Source: Candidatus Poribacteria bacterium (GTDB lineage: Bacteria; Poribacteria; WGA-4E; UBA9662). From it: 5,963 nt of DNA. The notes below the pieces were generated by a model. The model did no database searches and was not told where the DNA came from. It saw only the letters and a list, made by a program, of their open reading frames with translations. The stretch covers positions 4,472 through 10,434 of the forward strand of contig PACG01000042.1 in the NCBI GenBank assembly GCA_002699335.1, given 5' to 3'. The translations under genes and the position numbers were made by a program. Every line of letters begins with the position of its first letter. The first letter of the stretch is position 1. Below are positions 1-5,963 of this stretch, piece after piece.

Positions 1-2
1 AG

Positions 3-212
3 GTTGAGCCTGATCCCAAAATTAAGATTAAATTACTGGCCTTACATCATGTTCAATTCGGTCTATCTCCAGCGGAAGTTTCGAAGATGGTATTGGCCAA
101 AGAGAAAACGTTGCCTTCATGGGTAGATGCTTGTGGTGAAGTCTGGAATTGTTTTGGTGATGAAGAAGGCAATATCCAAAACATCGGTCATCGTACCTGG
201 GCTCTAATATAG
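3..212 (+). pseudogene. Degraded helix-turn-helix transposase-like fragment, 3' end
   Basis: The frame is open from the left edge to a TAG at 210-212, giving 69 residues with no start in view. The stretch with KIKIKLLALHHVQFGLSPAEV followed by LPSWVDAC resembles the helix-turn-helix at the N-terminus of IS630-type and related transposases: a run of basic and hydrophobic residues, then G-L-S-x-x-E-V, then a recognition helix and a W-V. After that the frame drifts into sequence that no longer looks like the family (EVWNCFGDEEGNIQNIGHR) and stops, with no catalytic domain following. I infer a truncated or frameshifted transposase or HTH remnant. It could instead be the genuine C-terminus of a small HTH protein that begins outside the window; the sequence to the left would decide. 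Confidence 0.45.
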
Positions 213-229
213 GTAATTATTTGACGTAA

Positions 230-266
230 TTGGTATAATTATAATTCTCTCATACTTTGGTATAAA
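230..266 (+). promoter_or_regulatory. Two extended -10-like promoter motifs upstream of selD
   Basis: In a very AT-rich stretch there are two near-identical motifs, TTGGTATAAT (230-239) and TTTGGTATAAA (257-266 plus flank), each of the form TGn-TATAAN, the extended -10 signature that can work without a good -35. A second TATAAT sits at 240-245. These are the best promoter candidates for selD. A transcript from either would have a leader of roughly 150-190 nt before the ATG at 430. The TTGACG at 221-226 is too close to the TATAAT boxes (7 or 13 nt) to be a normal -35. The rest of 213-429 holds no gene that I can recognise. The call is inferred from motif shape only. Confidence 0.3.
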
Positions 267-429
267 TGTCAAAACAGCAAAATACAGTCAGTGTTCGCTC
301 TCGTCTACACCTAATGTGAGTCAAAGCATCAGGAAGGAATGATATCCGACGTACCTAACATGGCCCCTTGATTGGATTATTAATGATATGTTATCATCCA
401 CAGGTTATGTTGGCACAGAAATTACAGAT

Positions 430-1488
430 ATGACAAGTAAAAAAATTCGGTTGACCCAAACCGTTAAGTCCGCTGGCTGAGCGTCGAAGTTGGATCCGGG
501 GGATCTGCACACTGTCTTAGCCCGAGTGCCGAAGGTAATCGATGATAATCTACTGGTCGGAACTGAAACCAAAGATGATGCCAGCGTTTATCAGCTTAGT
601 GCCGATCTGGCTATTATCAACACCGCTGACTATTTCACGCCGATTGTAGATGACCCCTATACCTTTGGTGCTATTGCTGCTACCAATGCCCTCAGTGACG
701 TCTATAGCATGGGCGGTATTCCCAAAACCGCACTCAACATCGTCTGCTGGAACGACGACCAACTTGACTTAGAGATTTTATCGGAGATTTTGAGTGGTGG
801 AGCCGATAAGGTCAAACAAGCGGGCGGCGTTGTTGCAGGCGGGCATACAGTGACAGGACCAGAACTGTTGTACGGCTTGGCACTGACGGGCATAATCCAT
901 CCAAATCAAGTAGTTCGAAACTGCGGAGCCCAACCTGGCGATCTCCTGATCTTAACTAAACGGCTCGGCATTGGCATTGTCACTACCGGGTTAAAGTTCG
1001 ATCAAGTCGGCGAAACTATTTTACCAACAGTCGTTGAATCGATGACCCGTTTGAATCAAAATGCTGCTGAAATCATGCTGCGGCATCAGGTCACCGCTTG
1101 CACCGACATTACGGGCTATGGGCTACTAGGGCACGCCGAAGAGATGGCCAACGGGAGCCAGGTTTCGATTGAGATCTTTTCTCAGCAGATCCCTTATTTT
1201 GATGAAGTGCCAGATCTGGTTCGACAAGGAGTGGCTACCAGAGCCTCCCAAGCTAACCAATGTTTTCTGCGAAACAAAGTCTGTTTTGACAACAGTGTAG
1301 ATCCGATTTTTCGGCAAATTTTAATGGAAGCGGAAACATCGGGAGGCCTGCTTTTCGCCGTGCCGGAGGATCAAGCACAAACAGCAGTCGATAAATTACA
1401 GCAAACGGATTGCCCGGAAGCAGCTATCGTTGGACAGGTCCAAACCGATTCTGAGTTGATGGACGACTTTACTATTCAAGTTGTTTAA
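430..1488 (+). CDS. selD: Selenophosphate synthetase SelD, selenocysteine-containing (UGA at codon 17)
   Basis: SelD makes monoselenophosphate from selenide and ATP, the selenium donor for selenocysteyn-tRNA and 2-selenouridine; it is cytosolic. The protein is 352 residues with the in-frame TGA (478-480) read as Sec. Upstream of the TGA the frame gives KIRLTQTVKSAG, the conserved SelD N-terminus, so Sec falls at residue 17 and Lys at 20, matching E. coli Cys17 and Lys20. Other family marks are LLVGTETKDDA (Asp50), IAATNALSDVYSMGG (Asp90), AGGHT near 136-140, the C-terminal AIRS-type domain with TDITGYGLLGH (Asp226), and AETSGGLL near 301. These Asp positions agree with the Mg/ATP ligands known in E. 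coli (51, 91, 227). I chose ATG 430 because it gives the family's usual length; an in-frame ATG at 388 would add 14 residues, and neither has a clear Shine-Dalgarno. A call beginning at TTG 490 would lack the catalytic loop. No other selenium gene is visible nearby. Confidence 0.93.
478..480 (+). other. selD: In-frame UGA, predicted selenocysteine codon of selD
   Basis: This TGA interrupts the selD frame between the conserved segments TVKSAG and ASKLDPGDL. It occupies exactly the position of the catalytic Cys (or Sec) in SelD proteins. The frame is open and homologous on both sides, which argues against an ordinary stop or a sequencing error. TGA is also used as a normal stop in this window (the YmdB gene ends with it), and Trp is encoded by TGG throughout, so a general reassignment of UGA is unlikely. 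Confidence 0.9.
488..513 (+). promoter_or_regulatory. Candidate bacterial SECIS hairpin directly after the selD UGA
   Basis: A hairpin can form with GGATCC (492-497) pairing to GGATCT (501-506): five Watson-Crick pairs plus one G-U, around a three-base loop GGG (498-500). A short lower helix AGT/ACT (488-490 with 511-513) is possible across an internal bulge. The apical loop begins 17 nt after the UGA and starts with G. Both features fit what is known of bacterial SECIS elements, which lie within the coding region just downstream of the UGA and present a G in the loop to SelB. Pairing was done by hand; no folding energy was computed. Confidence 0.6.
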
Positions 1489-1771
1489 CTATTGCAGATA
1501 TAGCTTAACTAGCGGTCGGATAGTACGATGAACTACAAACACAGATAGTACGTTGGGAATTGGACGTGTCTTTAAGTTGGCGCAAATGAGGGACGATAGT
1601 AGCAGGCTACATTGTGGATTGGGATACTGATAAAGGTCGAGTAACCGGAGTTCGAGATTTGCCCTTGAAACTAGAGAGTAGAGCTGATCGTTTCGCTAAT
1701 AGATTGCAGATAACGTCGTTACTTTGTAAAAGCCTCTTTATACAAATAGGCCCTTACGCATGGAGGTCGGC
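1489..1771 (+). other. Intergenic region between selD and the YmdB gene, no intact gene
   Basis: This 283-bp stretch has no credible complete gene. One frame is open from 1524 to a TGA at 1587-1589 and again from 1590 to about 1772. It includes IVAGYIVDWDTDKGRVTGVR, which has a protein-like composition reminiscent of beta-strand segments in oxidoreductases, but no start codon, no ribosome site and no family I can name. It may be a relic of a displaced gene. A weak -10-like TATACA (1739-1744) lies just before the YmdB start without a convincing -35. I saw no GC-rich hairpin followed by a T-run, so no terminator for selD can be called. Confidence 0.4.
1762..1767 (+). promoter_or_regulatory. Shine-Dalgarno sequence that fixes the YmdB start at GTG 1772
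   Basis: GGAGGT lies four bases (1768-1771) before the GTG at 1772-1774, or five from the GGAGG core, a good distance for initiation. The competing upstream ATG at 1760 overlaps this site and has no Shine-Dalgarno of its own. Confidence 0.8.
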
Positions 1772-2584
1772 GTGAAAATCGCATTTGTTGGTGACGTAGT
1801 CGGTAAACCAGGACGACTGGCGGTTCGATCATTGCTTCCCAAATTGATAACAGACTCAAGTGAATTTGATGCCATTATCATCAACGGTGAGAACTCGTCC
1901 GGCTTTCGTGGTATTACACATCGAATCTTCAAGGAACTTATTCGGGCCGGTGCCACAGTGGTTACTACTGGTAATCATGTCTGGGCGCAACAAGATGTAT
2001 TCAACTTTATCGACGATGAACCCCGTATAGTCCGACCGGCCAACTACCCCGCCGGCGTGCCAGGACGAGGCTTTACGGTTGTCACACTCAACGACGGTCG
2101 TAAATTAGGGGTCATTAACTTAGCCGGTCAGCTTTTTATGCCGAGTTTCGACAATCCGTTTCGAGCCTTAGACCGGATTTTACCACAGGTGGTTTCGGAA
2201 GCAGACTCTATTATAGTTGACTTTCACGCTGAAGCCACCTCAGAGAAAATCGCTATGGGGTGGTACGCAGATGGCCGAGTCAGCGCAGTAGTCGGTACAC
2301 ATACCCATGTCCAAACCGCAGATGAACGGGTTTTACCAAAAGGAACAGCCTACATTACGGACGTTGGTATGACCGGCCCACACGATTCGGTACTTGGGAT
2401 TCGGACCCATCTAGTGCTAGAAAACTTTTCCACTATGTTGCCGTCTAGATTTCAGGCGGCAGAAGGCGACATCAAACTCTGCGGCGTAACAATGAAAATT
2501 GACAACGAAACTGGAAAAGCGGAGTCAATTGATCGCTTTCAACTCTCGTTACCGCAAGATTTCCCTGTATCCGATAGGTCTTGA
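1772..2584 (+). CDS. ymdB: YmdB-family (TIGR00282) metallophosphoesterase
   Basis: This encodes 270 residues from a GTG start. The family is a cytosolic dinuclear-metal phosphoesterase; B. subtilis YmdB hydrolyses 2',3'-cyclic nucleotides and affects biofilm and motility decisions. It is unrelated to the E. coli macrodomain protein also named YmdB. The sequence shows the whole ligand set: IAFVGDVVGKPGR with Asp8, IIINGENSSG with Glu40-Asn41, TTGNHVW with Asn68-His69, IVDFHAEATSEK with Asp150 and His152, and GTHTHVQT with His177 and His179. The conserved ITDVGMTGPHDSVLGI follows near 195-210. The length is normal for the family. The GTG start gives the typical family N-terminus MKIAFVGDVVG and has GGAGGT before it; starting at ATG 1760 would add four uncharacteristic residues. 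It ends in TGA. The next gene, dxs, follows 100 bp later on the same strand; rny, a frequent partner of this family, is not in view. Confidence 0.93.
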   Translation: MKIAFVGDVVGKPGRLAVRSLLPKLITDSSEFDAIIINGENSSGFRGITHRIFKELIRAGATVVTTGNHVWAQQDVFNFIDDEPRIVRPANYPAGVPGRGFTVVTLNDGRKLGVINLAGQLFMPSFDNPFRALDRILPQVVSEADSIIVDFHAEATSEKIAMGWYADGRVSAVVGTHTHVQTADERVLPKGTAYITDVGMTGPHDSVLGIRTHLVLENFSTMLPSRFQAAEGDIKLCGVTMKIDNETGKAESIDRFQLSLPQDFPVSDRS

Positions 2585-2596
2585 GTGCGATATCAA

Positions 2597-2635
2597 TGGT
2601 CAGTTATTCGTTTCCAAAACACTGGCCGCTGACCA
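2597..2635 (+). repeat. 7-bp inverted repeat in the YmdB-dxs gap
   Basis: TGGTCAG (2597-2603) and CTGACCA (2629-2635) are perfect reverse complements separated by 25 nt, starting 12 nt after the YmdB stop. The RNA could form a stem-loop. There is no T-run after it and the loop is long, so it is not a standard intrinsic terminator. It may be an operator-like palindrome, a weak transcript-end structure, or chance. Confidence 0.3.
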
Positions 2636-2684
2636 CTAATTTAATTGCTTCCCATTATCATATTGCCCGGAGATTTCTCAGCAA

Positions 2685-4544
2685 ATGAACTTCCTACACC
2701 AAATTGATAGCCCAGACGATCTTAGAAAACTCTCCAAGGAAGAAATGAAGCTACTGGCGGACGAGATTCGCCAGTATTTGATTTCTGTTCTGTCTCAAAC
2801 ACCGGGGCATTTTGCACCTAACTTCGGTACTATTGAGTTAGCAATTGCCCTGCACAAGGTCTTTAATACGCCTCACGACAAAGTGATCTGGGATATTGGT
2901 CATCAAGCCTATCCGCATAAAATCCTGACTGGACGGAGAGACCAGCTTCCGTCTATCCGCCAACACGGTGGAATCAGTGGCTTTTTGCATCGAGGTGAGA
3001 GTGAATACGATGTTTTTGGCGCCGGCCATTCCAGTACTTCGCTAGCCGCCGCTCTTGGGATTGCCTCAGCGAGAGATCTGAAGCAAGAGGCTTTCAAAGT
3101 CGTAGCGGTGATCGGTGATGGTGGGCTCACAGGTGGTATGGCCTTTGAAGCCATGAATGTGGCAGGTGACTATGAGAAAGATCTGATTATGGTCCTTAAC
3201 GATAACCAGATGTCGATTTCGGCTACAGTGGGGGCTTTTGCCAAATACTTCAGCCGTCTAACTGCTAGCCCAACCTATAATGTGTTCCGGACAAAGTTGA
3301 AAGAATTTCTCAACCATGTGCCCTCTGATGCTCGCCAGGTGGTCAAGCGCCTAGAAGCTGCGATCAAACCCGGCATGCTGTTTGAGGAGTTTGGGTTCCG
3401 CTATTTTGGGCCAATTGATGGGCACGACCTGGATCTGCTACTGGAGATGTTCACCCATGTCAAAGATCTTTCGCACCCGATTCTAGTTCATGTGCTAACT
3501 AAAAAAGGCAAAGGTTGTCAAATAGCAGAAGACGATCCAGTTGGCTTTTACAGTGTCAGCAATAAGTTTAATCCAGCGACAGGCCAGTCATTGACAGCGG
3601 GTTCTACCACGCCTAAATATACTGACGTATTCAGTCAAACGCTGGTCAAATTAGCCAAAACCGACCAGCGTTTGGTCGCTATTACTGCAGCGATGCCAAC
3701 GGGTACAGGTTTAGACACGTTTCAGAATGAGTATCCAGACCGATTTTTTGATGTGGGGTTAGCCGAACAGTGTGCAGTGACGTTTGGTGCAGGGTTAGCC
3801 ACGGAGAATTTGAAACCAGTAATTGCCATCTACTCGACATTTTTGCAAAGGTCCTACGATCAGATCGTACACGACGTTTGTATTCAGAACTTGCCTGTTA
3901 CTTTCGCATTGGATCGAGCCGGTCTAGTCGGTGCTGACGGGCCCACTCACCACGGAGTGTTCGACTTCTCTTACCTGCGGCACCTGCCCCACATAGTGAT
4001 AATGGCACCCAAGGATGAAAACGAACTACAATCAATGGTCAAGACCGCTGTCGATTACGAGGATGGCCCTGTTGCCCTCCGTTATCCACGGGGTTCAGGT
4101 GTCGGCGTCCCACTTTCCGACCAACCTTCGGCTTTGCCAATTGGAAAGGCTGAAGTTCTCAAAGAGGGTTTAGATTTGCTGATTTTAGCCATCGGTAATC
4201 GGGTCTATCCTGGGCTGGAAGCTGCTAATGTTTTGATGGATATAGGGATTAATGCTACCGTTATCAACGCCAGGTTCGTCAAACCGCTGGATATCGATCT
4301 AATTGCTCCTTTAGCCGAAAAAATTGGAAAAGTCATCACTGTCGAAGATCATGTCCTGGCAGGCGGTTTCGGTAGTGCAGTAATTGAAATGTTCGCCGAT
4401 CAAGGCATTTCAGCTCACGTCAGGCGACTTGGAATTCCAGACGAATTTGTGGAACATGGCGATGTCAAGGTTCTCTACAACCAGTATGGTTATGATGAAC
4501 AGGGAATCATAAAAGCGGGGCAAGACCTATTGTCCCTTGAATAG
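2685..4544 (+). CDS. dxs: 1-deoxy-D-xylulose-5-phosphate synthase
   Basis: Dxs condenses pyruvate and glyceraldehyde 3-phosphate to DXP, with thiamine diphosphate and Mg2+, with release of CO2. This is the entry step of the MEP isoprenoid pathway and also feeds thiamine and pyridoxal synthesis. The 619 residues match the usual length (about 620). In order: GHFAPNFGTIELA with His42, DIGHQAYPHKILTGRR (70-85), FGAGHSSTS (111-119), the TPP/Mg motif GDGGLTGGMAFEAMN (144-158) followed by LNDNQMSIS (171-179), then the pyrimidine-domain catalytic Glu361 in DVGLAEQ, substrate residues Arg389 (LQRSYDQ), Arg411 and Asp418 (DRAGLVGADGPTHHG), His422 and Arg467 (RYPRG), and the C-terminal transketolase domain to about 615. 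These align with E. coli His49, Glu370, Arg398, Arg420, Asp427, His431 and Arg478. ATG 2685 gives the common MNFLxxIDSPxDL start; the only upstream purine stretch, GGAG at 2669, is rather far. Stop is TAG. Nothing suggests damage. Confidence 0.97.
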   Translation: MNFLHQIDSPDDLRKLSKEEMKLLADEIRQYLISVLSQTPGHFAPNFGTIELAIALHKVFNTPHDKVIWDIGHQAYPHKILTGRRDQLPSIRQHGGISGFLHRGESEYDVFGAGHSSTSLAAALGIASARDLKQEAFKVVAVIGDGGLTGGMAFEAMNVAGDYEKDLIMVLNDNQMSISATVGAFAKYFSRLTASPTYNVFRTKLKEFLNHVPSDARQVVKRLEAAIKPGMLFEEFGFRYFGPIDGHDLDLLLEMFTHVKDLSHPILVHVLTKKGKGCQIAEDDPVGFYSVSNKFNPATGQSLTAGSTTPKYTDVFSQTLVKLAKTDQRLVAITAAMPTGTGLDTFQNEYPDRFFDVGLAEQCAVTFGAGLATENLKPVIAIYSTFLQRSYDQIVHDVCIQNLPVTFALDRAGLVGADGPTHHGVFDFSYLRHLPHIVIMAPKDENELQSMVKTAVDYEDGPVALRYPRGSGVGVPLSDQPSALPIGKAEVLKEGLDLLILAIGNRVYPGLEAANVLMDIGINATVINARFVKPLDIDLIAPLAEKIGKVITVEDHVLAGGFGSAVIEMFADQGISAHVRRLGIPDEFVEHGDVKVLYNQYGYDEQGIIKAGQDLLSLE

Positions 4545-4770
4545 TAAATTTAGACTGGTGCATAGCAGTTGGTTTCATCATAAAGTTTAAGAAGAGACAT
4601 GTGGATGTTGGGTAGAATAAGAAGATAAACCAATCAGAGAGATAAGAGAAATGGACAACTTCGCTGTTAAATAGCTACACCGGCCGACTCAATTGCCCTA
4701 GAGAGTAAACGACAGAGTAAGATAAAGTGCGGGAAATCCCCAGAAAATGAGATGGAAGTTTGGAGGTTAA
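4545..4770. other. Gene-free stretch downstream of dxs
   Basis: These 226 bases are rich in stops in all six frames and show no recognisable protein, RNA gene or clear terminator. The composition is purine-rich on the plus strand (for example around 4590-4660). It runs up to a TTAA (4767-4770) that borders the end of the IS5-type remnant. Confidence 0.5.
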
Positions 4771-4786
4771 GAGGCTGTTTGACAGG
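4771..4786 (-). repeat. Probable terminal inverted repeat of the IS5-type element
   Basis: GAGGCTGTTTGACAGG resembles the outer ends of many IS5-family elements, which often start GAGGCTGTTT or GGGGCTGTTT. It lies about 40 bp beyond the end of the transposase homology, as expected. It is preceded by TTAA (4767-4770), a plausible remnant of the short TA-rich target duplication. The partner repeat is not in the window. Confidence 0.55.
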
Positions 4787-4945
4787 TATTTTATTCGTTT
4801 GAGCGTCAGTTGAATCCGCTTCTCTAACCAATCATGGCAATGTAAATCATGTTCTCCGAGTTGCTGACTTTGGAGCGCGTCGTCTCAACTCCAGCTTCGA
4901 TGCCAAGCCAAGGCCTGTTCCACAACCATAAACTGAGTTGGACCT
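4771..4945 (-). mobile_element. IS5-family insertion sequence remnant (3' end of transposase plus terminal end)
   Basis: Reading the minus strand, one frame gives GPTQFMVVEQALAWHRSWS (4944 down to 4888) and then a TGA. A second frame takes over with ETTRSKVSNSENMIYIAMIG (4886 down to 4827) and then a TAG. Joined, these match the C-terminal end of IS5-type DDE transposases, where a W-V-V-E-x-x-x-A-W segment containing the catalytic Glu is followed about 35 residues on by E-x-M-I-Y-I-A-M-I. At least one frameshift separates them, so the gene is dead. The non-coding end GAGGCTGTTTGACAGG follows at 4771-4786. Only the last sixty or so codons survive; the N-terminal part is missing, and IS1-like sequence starts where it should be. 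Confidence 0.75.
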
Positions 4946-4949
4946 TATA

Positions 4950-5435
4950 ACTAGTTTCTGCTTCCTCGCCCAGCTATTTGGCATCTCCCCAACAACTACA
5001 TATTAATGGGTATCCAGATTTCAATCGCACCAAGGGAAGCGATTGTGGCCTAGGGTATCAAGGAAATTGAATCGACCAAATGTGGCACTTCCTAGGCTCA
5101 AAAAAACAAAAAAAATGAATTGTCACGGCCCGAGACTGTCACACACGACCGACTGTAGCCAGAGTTGTCATTGGCTGTAATACAGTAACAGTACGAAGGT
5201 TAGAAAAAAATTAAGCCCTTGAAGCGGTGTTGCTTCTACACCAGCCACGGGATGGCCTTCGCCAAAGTATTACCGGCCAAGCAATATGTGGTGGGTATAA
5301 AGTCGGACTGTACCATCGAACAGGACAACTCGAACACCTATCATTATCTGGGCCGGATGCCGCGAAGGAGCAAAATCGCTAGTTGTGGCGAAGAGATGGT
5401 CTCCCTTTCTCTTAGGCTTTGGCTAGCTCTAACCA
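4950..5435 (+). mobile_element. IS1-family transposase remnant with internal stops and frameshifts
   Basis: The plus strand holds pieces of one IS1-type transposase. From 5071, IDQMWHFLGSKKQKK matches the family's first-Asp motif (I-D-E-M/L-W); then comes a TGA at 5116 where the family usually has Trp, then IVTARDCHTRPTVARVVIGC and TVTVRRLEKN ending at a TAA in an A-rich tract. After a shift at the A7 run (5204-5210) the frame gives KKIKPLKRCCFYTSHGMAF, VLPAKQYVVG, then CTIEQDNSNTYHYLGRMPRR and [16 protein letters not shown] to about 5435. The third acidic residue, Glu in TIEQ (5318-5320), is kept, but the second Asp (usually Y-T-D-D-W) reads Ser-His-Gly. LAQLFGISPTTTY followed by a stop and WV (4965-5012) may be the N-terminal helix-turn-helix, in another frame; that part is less certain. 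The element is inactive, and its outer repeats are not recognisable. Confidence 0.75.
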
Positions 5436-5609
5436 CACTGCAGGTCTGCCAAGTTTTTCGGCGCCCAAGGTCTCTGTGGCACAACGGGGTTTTTCAGGGG
5501 ACGATCCCAAGATTCCGTAAACCTGGACGCCCAGGCGGCGGAGGGCTTCGGTGTGAACTGGCCCCATGAATACGGTACCAATGACGGCTGTGGCCAGATT
5601 GTTTGCCAT
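5412..5609 (-). pseudogene. Gfo/Idh/MocA-family oxidoreductase, N-terminal remnant
   Basis: The minus-strand frame starts at ATG 5609 with [20 protein letters not shown], then [20 protein letters not shown] and a few more residues ending about LGAEKLGRP. This is the first beta-alpha-beta of the NAD(P)-binding Rossmann fold of the family, which normally oxidises sugars, inositols or related polyols and has about 330-400 residues. Homology stops near residue 53-55 (about 5445), and the frame ends at 5412 after residues that are antisense to the IS1-type fragment. The dinucleotide motif is also damaged: the usual G-T-G-F-M-G reads G-T-V-F-M-G. An AGGGAG ribosome site six bases before the ATG shows the start was once functional. 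I infer loss of about 85% of the gene at the IS1 junction. The substrate cannot be told from this piece. Confidence 0.85.
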
Positions 5610-5615
5610 GTTGTG

Positions 5616-5621
5616 CTCCCT
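5616..5621 (-). promoter_or_regulatory. Shine-Dalgarno of the oxidoreductase remnant
   Basis: On the minus strand AGGGAG, overlapping the TAG stop of the upstream isomerase fragment, lies six bases before ATG 5609. The tight 10-bp gap between the two frames shows that they were translated from one message. Confidence 0.65.
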
Positions 5622-5748
5622 ATAGACCGGCTTCCTCGGCATAGCGTCGCATGTACTTTAGGGTAGTTTTCAGTTTCTCCGGTGGTGTGTGCTCAACAAT
5701 CAAACAACCATCTAGACCCAATGCCTCTTCCAACCTTGTCGACACCAT
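5620..5748 (-). pseudogene. Sugar-phosphate isomerase/epimerase-like C-terminal remnant
   Basis: The minus-strand frame carries RLEEALGLDGCLIVEHTPPE followed by [18 protein letters not shown] and a TAG at 5620. This matches the usual C-terminus of TIM-barrel (AP endonuclease 2-type) sugar-phosphate isomerases/epimerases: an L-x-x-L-G-Y-D-G strand, I-V-E-H, then a final helix ending near A-E-x-A-G-L. Such proteins are often encoded next to Gfo/Idh/MocA oxidoreductases, as here. The frame is open back to about 5817, but those residues do not look like the family, and a full protein would need some 230 more residues, whereas an aldehyde dehydrogenase end lies only about 120 bp further on. I infer an internal deletion that left only the tail. 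The ATG at 5748 is an accidental in-frame Met. Confidence 0.65.
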
Positions 5749-5871
5749 TTGCAGTAATGAGAGGAAACTCCTTACTATTTTAGTCTCTTCCTTTTTCCAA
5801 ACAGGTTCTAAGCAGAATCAACTCCCTTGCACAATAAGATGGAATACTCCCTGTAATCAGATTAGCTTCTG

Positions 5872-5963
5872 TCAATCGTCAAGATGCAGTATTACCATTT
5901 TGAGTTCCGTCATTTCTTCCACGGCGTATTTCGGTCCCTCTTTACCCATACCACTGCTTTTCA
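5872..5963 (-). CDS. Aldehyde dehydrogenase, C-terminal end (partial, continues past the right edge)
   Basis: The minus-strand frame enters from the right edge and reads KSSGMGKEGPKYAVEEMTEL then KMVILHLDD with a TGA at 5872-5874. The order S-G-x-G-K/R-E-G-P-x-Y-A-x-E-E-M-T-E-x-K is the standard C-terminus of NAD(P)-dependent aldehyde dehydrogenases of the succinate-semialdehyde/lactaldehyde type, just after the family's F-G-G-x-K. About 30 residues are visible of a protein normally near 480. The stop is where the family usually ends, so this end looks intact, but whether the rest is complete cannot be seen. It reads toward the isomerase and oxidoreductase remnants and was probably in the same catabolic block. 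Confidence 0.75.
   Translation of the reverse strand, partial: KSSGMGKEGPKYAVEEMTELKMVILHLDD

Follow-up and report, generated by a model that had tools for sequence, protein, structure and literature searches.

The question raised by this locus is whether a selenophosphate synthetase gene (selD) with an in-frame TGA encodes an enzyme that itself carries selenocysteine (Sec) at its catalytic position. The window, meaning the whole stretch of 5,963 nucleotides that was analysed, contains three features that bear directly on this question:

430 to 1488, forward strand: selD, selenophosphate synthetase, 352 aa with the single in-frame UGA taken as Sec; stop TAA at 1486-1488.
478 to 480, forward strand: TGA codon of residue 17, predicted to be read as selenocysteine and corresponding to the catalytic Cys17 (alignment to 3u0o_A; TGA in 80 of 80 loci).
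487 to 489, forward strand: AAG, Lys20, conserved (alignment to 3u0o_A; invariant in a 9-row alignment).

The frame running from ATG 430 to the TAA has one internal stop, TGA 478-480, and with this codon translated as U the product begins with MTSKKIRLTQTVKSAGUASKLDPGD... Using the curated family model TIGR00476 (selD) we obtained 369.5 bits for the product, the cut-off being 125, and a domain search found both AIRS domains. The open reading frame listing of the window gives 490-1488 from a TTG, without the upstream part of selD. The preliminary description had taken this shorter frame for a mere remainder of SelD, and the extension to ATG 430, together with the family score of the 352-aa product, bears it out.

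Residues 17 and 20 of SelD have a catalytic role. A phmmer alignment to 3u0o_A, which we take to be SelD of E. coli, runs without gaps from residue 2 past residue 20, which places the UGA opposite Cys17 and Lys20 opposite Lys20, as had been proposed; in 2yye_A the residue aligned to the UGA is likewise Cys. According to these alignments, the window protein combines the position-17 residue, here as predicted Sec, with the Lys at 20 that marks SelD. The match to the E. coli Cys-SelD (3u0o) amounts to 229 bits over residues 2-315, but position 17 is Cys there and predicted Sec in the window, and Cys19 there is Ser in the window. The residues following the Sec are A-S-K in the window, whereas they are G-C-K in E. 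coli SelD and in Bacillus-type loci.

The best genome match to the window is L001 (Candidatus Poribacteria bacterium Arabian9_MAG_50), with 91% nucleotide identity over window positions 243-4554. The match spans selD and two neighbouring genes:

1760 to 2584, forward strand: YmdB-like metallophosphoesterase (TIGR00282), identified by family match, with TGA as its ordinary stop.
2685 to 4544, forward strand: dxs, 1-deoxy-D-xylulose-5-phosphate synthase, identified by family match.

The similarity to L001 ends on both sides, window positions 1-242 and 4555-5963 having no blastn match, and the surroundings of selD-ymdB-dxs differ between the two sequences. The 53 best loci are all titled Poribacteria and, judged by its sequence, the window comes from Candidatus Poribacteria or close kin.

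The TGA is kept in L001. In a scan based on two internal motifs, with no TGA required, codon 17 was TGA in all of the best 80 of 368 confirmed loci, which come from several phyla; since the scan alignment was built from the window SelD and 34 truncated database relatives, this count leans towards genes of the window's clade and is no survey of all SelD. Within the Poribacteria phylum, 75 of 84 genomes have a SelD match (E <= 1e-30), one per genome, each of the 75 matches contains exactly one in-frame TGA, and the TGA stands at the same site in all 30 loci fetched out of the 75. A UGA at the Cys17 codon that is conserved in relatives is thus found for the window selD. The preliminary description had allowed for a sequencing error that turned a TGT or TGC into TGA. 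Such a sequencing or assembly error, with an ordinary Cys-SelD behind it, is extremely unlikely, since L001, which is a different sequence, has the same TGA, as do all 80 loci, and every one of the 75 phylum matches contains it once.

The phylum to which the Syntrophobacter genome (L054) belongs gave a SelD match in 132 of 148 genomes, and all SelD-matched genomes except G106 have a match with a single in-frame TGA (rows read by eye; the site was checked in 30 fetched loci). Two genomes, G217 and G171, each have one stop-free SelD match with Cys at the site and one with the TGA, and may be useful for a comparison of Cys and Sec copies. Within the Poribacteria phylum, a separate lineage (L130, L134, L136-L138, L142 and L143) reads, by eye, T-C-G-U-A-A-K around the Sec codon, and a possible hairpin with a shifted 3' arm was also seen there by eye.

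Another explanation would be that translation really ends at the UGA, and that the gene is either a pseudogene or produces a truncated functional protein by restarting at TTG 490. The open frame from TTG 490 does exist, and proteins truncated in this way are stored in the databases: P0002, which is 92% identical and 332 aa long, starts exactly at the TTG-490 position, and all 34 database relatives that were aligned (among 120 listed) start downstream of the UGA position. However, the 16 codons that precede the TGA show the conservation of a coding region. Their mean entropy at the three codon positions is 0.40/0.20/1.39 bits, compared with 0.38/0.25/1.19 bits after the TGA (54 Poribacteria sequences), and of the codon differences between the window and the 53 other Poribacteria in these 16 codons, 397 are synonymous and 220 non-synonymous. 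These codons behave as coding sequence would, varying mostly at third positions. Moreover, a truncated form would be without the Cys17 position and Lys20. The database entries correspond to what had been anticipated of automatic annotation, namely that it would report a truncated SelD.

The in-frame TGA in a conserved gene would also be explained if UGA stood for one of the standard amino acids (Gly or Trp) throughout this lineage. Against this, the ymdB gene of the window uses TGA as its stop and neither ymdB nor dxs contains an internal TGA, each SelD match in the phylum contains only one TGA, and tRNA-Sec is found in relatives; we consider a reassignment to be practically negligible. Taken together, the conservation of the TGA and the coding-like codons upstream of it make an error, a pseudogene and a general reassignment very unlikely.

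If the UGA is read as Sec, a stem-loop just downstream would serve as guide, and a candidate is present in the window:

491 to 507, forward strand: putative bacterial SECIS stem-loop, with a core stem of 493-497 paired with 501-505, the loop GGG at 498-500 and two outer wobble pairs.

The loop of this putative element begins 17 nt past the UGA; five Watson-Crick and two wobble pairs can be drawn, and six pairs are present in the predicted fold. The bacterial SECIS model, as printed in PMC13188914, has a loop of 3-9 nt with G as its first or second base (or both), a stem of 4-16 bp, a distance of 16-37 nt from the UGA to the loop and a minimum free energy not above -7.5 kcal/mol. Measured against this text, the window hairpin agrees in loop (3 nt), stem, G (GGG) and spacing (17 nt), while its energy varies with the folded length, being -8.8 kcal/mol for 45 nt and -6.9 kcal/mol for 35 and 39 nt.

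Two lines of evidence carry the putative hairpin. The first is synonymous reshuffling, which preserves each protein and was applied to 82 distinct regions of 92 (the window, the 80 loci and 11 of the 30 phylum loci, taken on one strand with a narrow motif). The 55 distinct sequences of the phylum set form a mean of 4.33 of the five hairpin pairs, compared with 2.83 after reshuffling (sd 0.10, maximum 3.11 of 300), and the 27 other sequences form 4.19 compared with 3.18. The second is covariation in alignment A2, a hand-chosen set of 42 of the 81 sequences (window and 80 loci) from which near-duplicates were left out. Columns 17 and 27 pair as C-G in 18 rows, G-C in 17, A-U in 5 and G-U in 1. 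The covariation score of 0.324, compared with 0.106 for shuffled alignments, was reached by none of 500 shuffles, and the stem is paired to 85%, compared with 17-58% in versions slid along the alignment; neither value was equalled by any of the 500 shuffles or by any slid version. Since the relatedness of the sequences may inflate the comparison with shuffles, the slid control matters more. Two of the five covariation measures give a different picture, as 326 of 500 shuffles have at least as many pairs with a change in both partners as the real alignment, and 192 of 500 at least as many further pair types. At the innermost position, 23 of the 42 rows are unpaired.

Folding-energy tests do not single the hairpin out. 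RNAalifold predicted no pairs on the same 42-row alignment, and single-sequence folding of the window was no better than that of dinucleotide shuffles (z +1.05 for 45 nt, +0.34 for 35 nt and +1.18 for 39 nt). Compared with synonymous reshuffles the folding energy is slightly low (mean z -0.35 for the phylum set, -0.82 for the others and -1.05 for the window). Among five sequences folded, L009 and L043 prefer other stems, and a control with Cys-SelD, comprising only three genes, gave best stems of 4, 5 and 0 pairs. For the Sec-SelD of the L054 phylum, a qualifying stem was found in 28 of 29 rows (32 rows minus three chance motif matches; 30 loci fetched, L196 unmatched). An Rfam scan of the window returned a chance match alone (adapt33_3, E 0.78), and ARAGORN found no tRNAs in the window.

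The pairs also differ between lineages in a manner that is visible in the protein. The first pair is G-C, A-U or G-U. The second is A-U, mainly with Asp-Pro-Gly-Asp, C-G, mainly with Ala-Pro-Gly-Glu, or G-C, mainly with Gly- or Ser-Pro-X-Asp. Such paired residue differences (Asp-Asp versus Ala-Glu) suggest that RNA structure may steer the protein sequence beside the recoding site.

The machinery for Sec insertion is widespread in the phylum. SelB was found over cut-off in 75 and SelA in 71 of the 84 Poribacteria-phylum genomes; among the 75 that bear SelD, SelB is present in 70 and SelA in 66. The SelD-bearing genomes without SelB are G001, G035, G053, G064 and G065, of which G035, G053 and G065 are also without SelA (genome completeness not given). 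Nine genomes are without SelD; four of these (G014, G015, G019 and G038) are without all three proteins, and the other five have SelA and SelB. A closer search for tRNA-Sec, SelB and SelA covered 11 genomes, taken from 12 loci with L022 left out, and tRNA-Sec was over cut-off in 10 of them. ARAGORN reported a tRNA-Sec (tca) at all four loci tested.

The genome nearest to the window, G001, from which L001 comes, has SelA (open frame of 473 aa). In profile searches of this bin SelB was not found, and the best tRNA-Sec candidate scored 44.8 bits, below the cut-off of 47 (150 of 691 candidates scored). The lack of both in the nearest bin would fit a true stop at the UGA with restart at TTG 490, yet SelB accompanies SelD in 70 of the 75 SelD-bearing genomes, and we regard the restart, or a pseudogene, as highly improbable. 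G001 may rather be an incomplete bin. This reading is based on three observations. Of the other ten genomes, eight have their SelB and tRNA-Sec matches no more than about 0.5 kb apart, so that both could be lost to one gap. All ten also contain a further strong match to the SelB profile (frames of 374-416 aa), probably EF-Tu by its length and score, which is missing from G001. Finally, a Sec site of an FdhA-type protein is present in G001 (G001:C454:32216-33487, L204).

This protein is probably a second selenoprotein of the phylum. A PF00384 match with one internal TGA was found in 8 of 12 and 12 of 14, together 20 of 26 phylum genomes, G001 included. In all five loci read, the Sec context is CSRA-U-HAPTVAGL, which we take to be the known Sec site of formate dehydrogenase, and an 8 bp stem follows whose loop begins 19 nt past the UGA. 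The FdhA-type protein shares with SelD a single in-frame TGA followed by a hairpin, but it is a different enzyme (formate dehydrogenase) that is encoded outside the window. Given these Sec sites, the phylum probably has selenoproteins besides SelD. An in-frame TGA was also seen in formate dehydrogenase-type proteins at L155-L158. SelW-type proteins were not found in four non-Poribacteria genomes. GRDB was considered as a further candidate and rejected; the matches, in 9 of 13 phylum genomes, are C-terminal partial and stop-free, and the four inspected had no convincing Sec site.

The remainder of the window was also surveyed. Positions 5228-5401 (forward strand), within the open frame 5219-5569, look like what is left of a transposase of the IS1 family (NZ_CP110821.1, 58 aa aligned at 41% identity); a Pfam search of this stretch gave no matches. 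A short frame at 5412-5642 (reverse strand) is possibly a decayed gene. It had no Pfam match up to E 1 and resembles, by eye, the start of a Gfo/Idh/MocA-type oxidoreductase. Megablast of the whole window against plasmids and phages gave no matches.

In view of the reading frame, the position of the UGA, the conservation of the TGA, the base-pair covariation and the machinery in relatives, we are highly confident that the window selD encodes a Sec-containing SelD, whose UGA 17 would be read as Sec by SelB and Sec-tRNA(Sec) with the help of the downstream stem-loop. The claim that residue 17 is Sec, made beforehand from the window alone, is supported by TGA in 80 of 80 loci, the covarying hairpin and SelA, SelB and tRNA-Sec in the phylum. 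The enzyme would make selenophosphate from selenide and ATP, with Sec in its N-terminal selenium-binding loop, and SelB, binding the hairpin, would deliver Sec to codon 17. Since SelA needs selenophosphate to make Sec-tRNA(Sec), each SelD would depend on an earlier enzyme of its own kind, and such a self-dependence in the cell would fit the finding that 75 genomes have one SelD match each. A 'self-reinforcing selenium switch', as the preliminary description put it, might be a further consequence of this dependence.

Sec-SelD is a long-known family, as described in PMC4561486 and PMC13188914. Like the bacterial members, the window SelD has its UGA at the codon for Cys17, keeps Lys20 and the two AIRS domains and shows a bSECIS-like stem-loop just downstream. 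It is therefore an ordinary further Sec-SelD, in a poorly studied phylum, and the arrangement itself is well known. Searches of a literature library for Poribacteria with selenoprotein or selenophosphate found nothing, and with selenocysteine they returned PMC5649159, in which SelA and SelB are reported for sponge-symbiont bins of various phyla, and a bare reference title.

One difference within the phylum concerns residue 14 (window 469-471), which is Ser (TCC) in the window and Cys in the other 53 of 54 Poribacteria SelD, with TGC in L001. The other Poribacteria proteins thus carry a C-A-G-U (CxxU) motif, and the window is without Cys14. CxxU is a common redox motif. It is conceivable, although we consider it rather unlikely, that Cys14 and Sec17 form a redox pair in Poribacteria SelD that replaces the CxC of E. 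coli and was lost in the lineage of the window (Ser14), combined with an obligate self-dependence of selenium activation in the phylum. If true, the pair might, for instance, serve to shield the perselenide or to resolve it; with one SelD match per genome, selenium would then be activated in this phylum in an obligately self-dependent manner.

Overall, our data correct a systematic annotation error, as the entries of all 34 aligned database relatives omit the beginning of the protein and hence the catalytic residue. Moreover, they add SelD and the FdhA-type protein as likely selenoproteins of Poribacteria.
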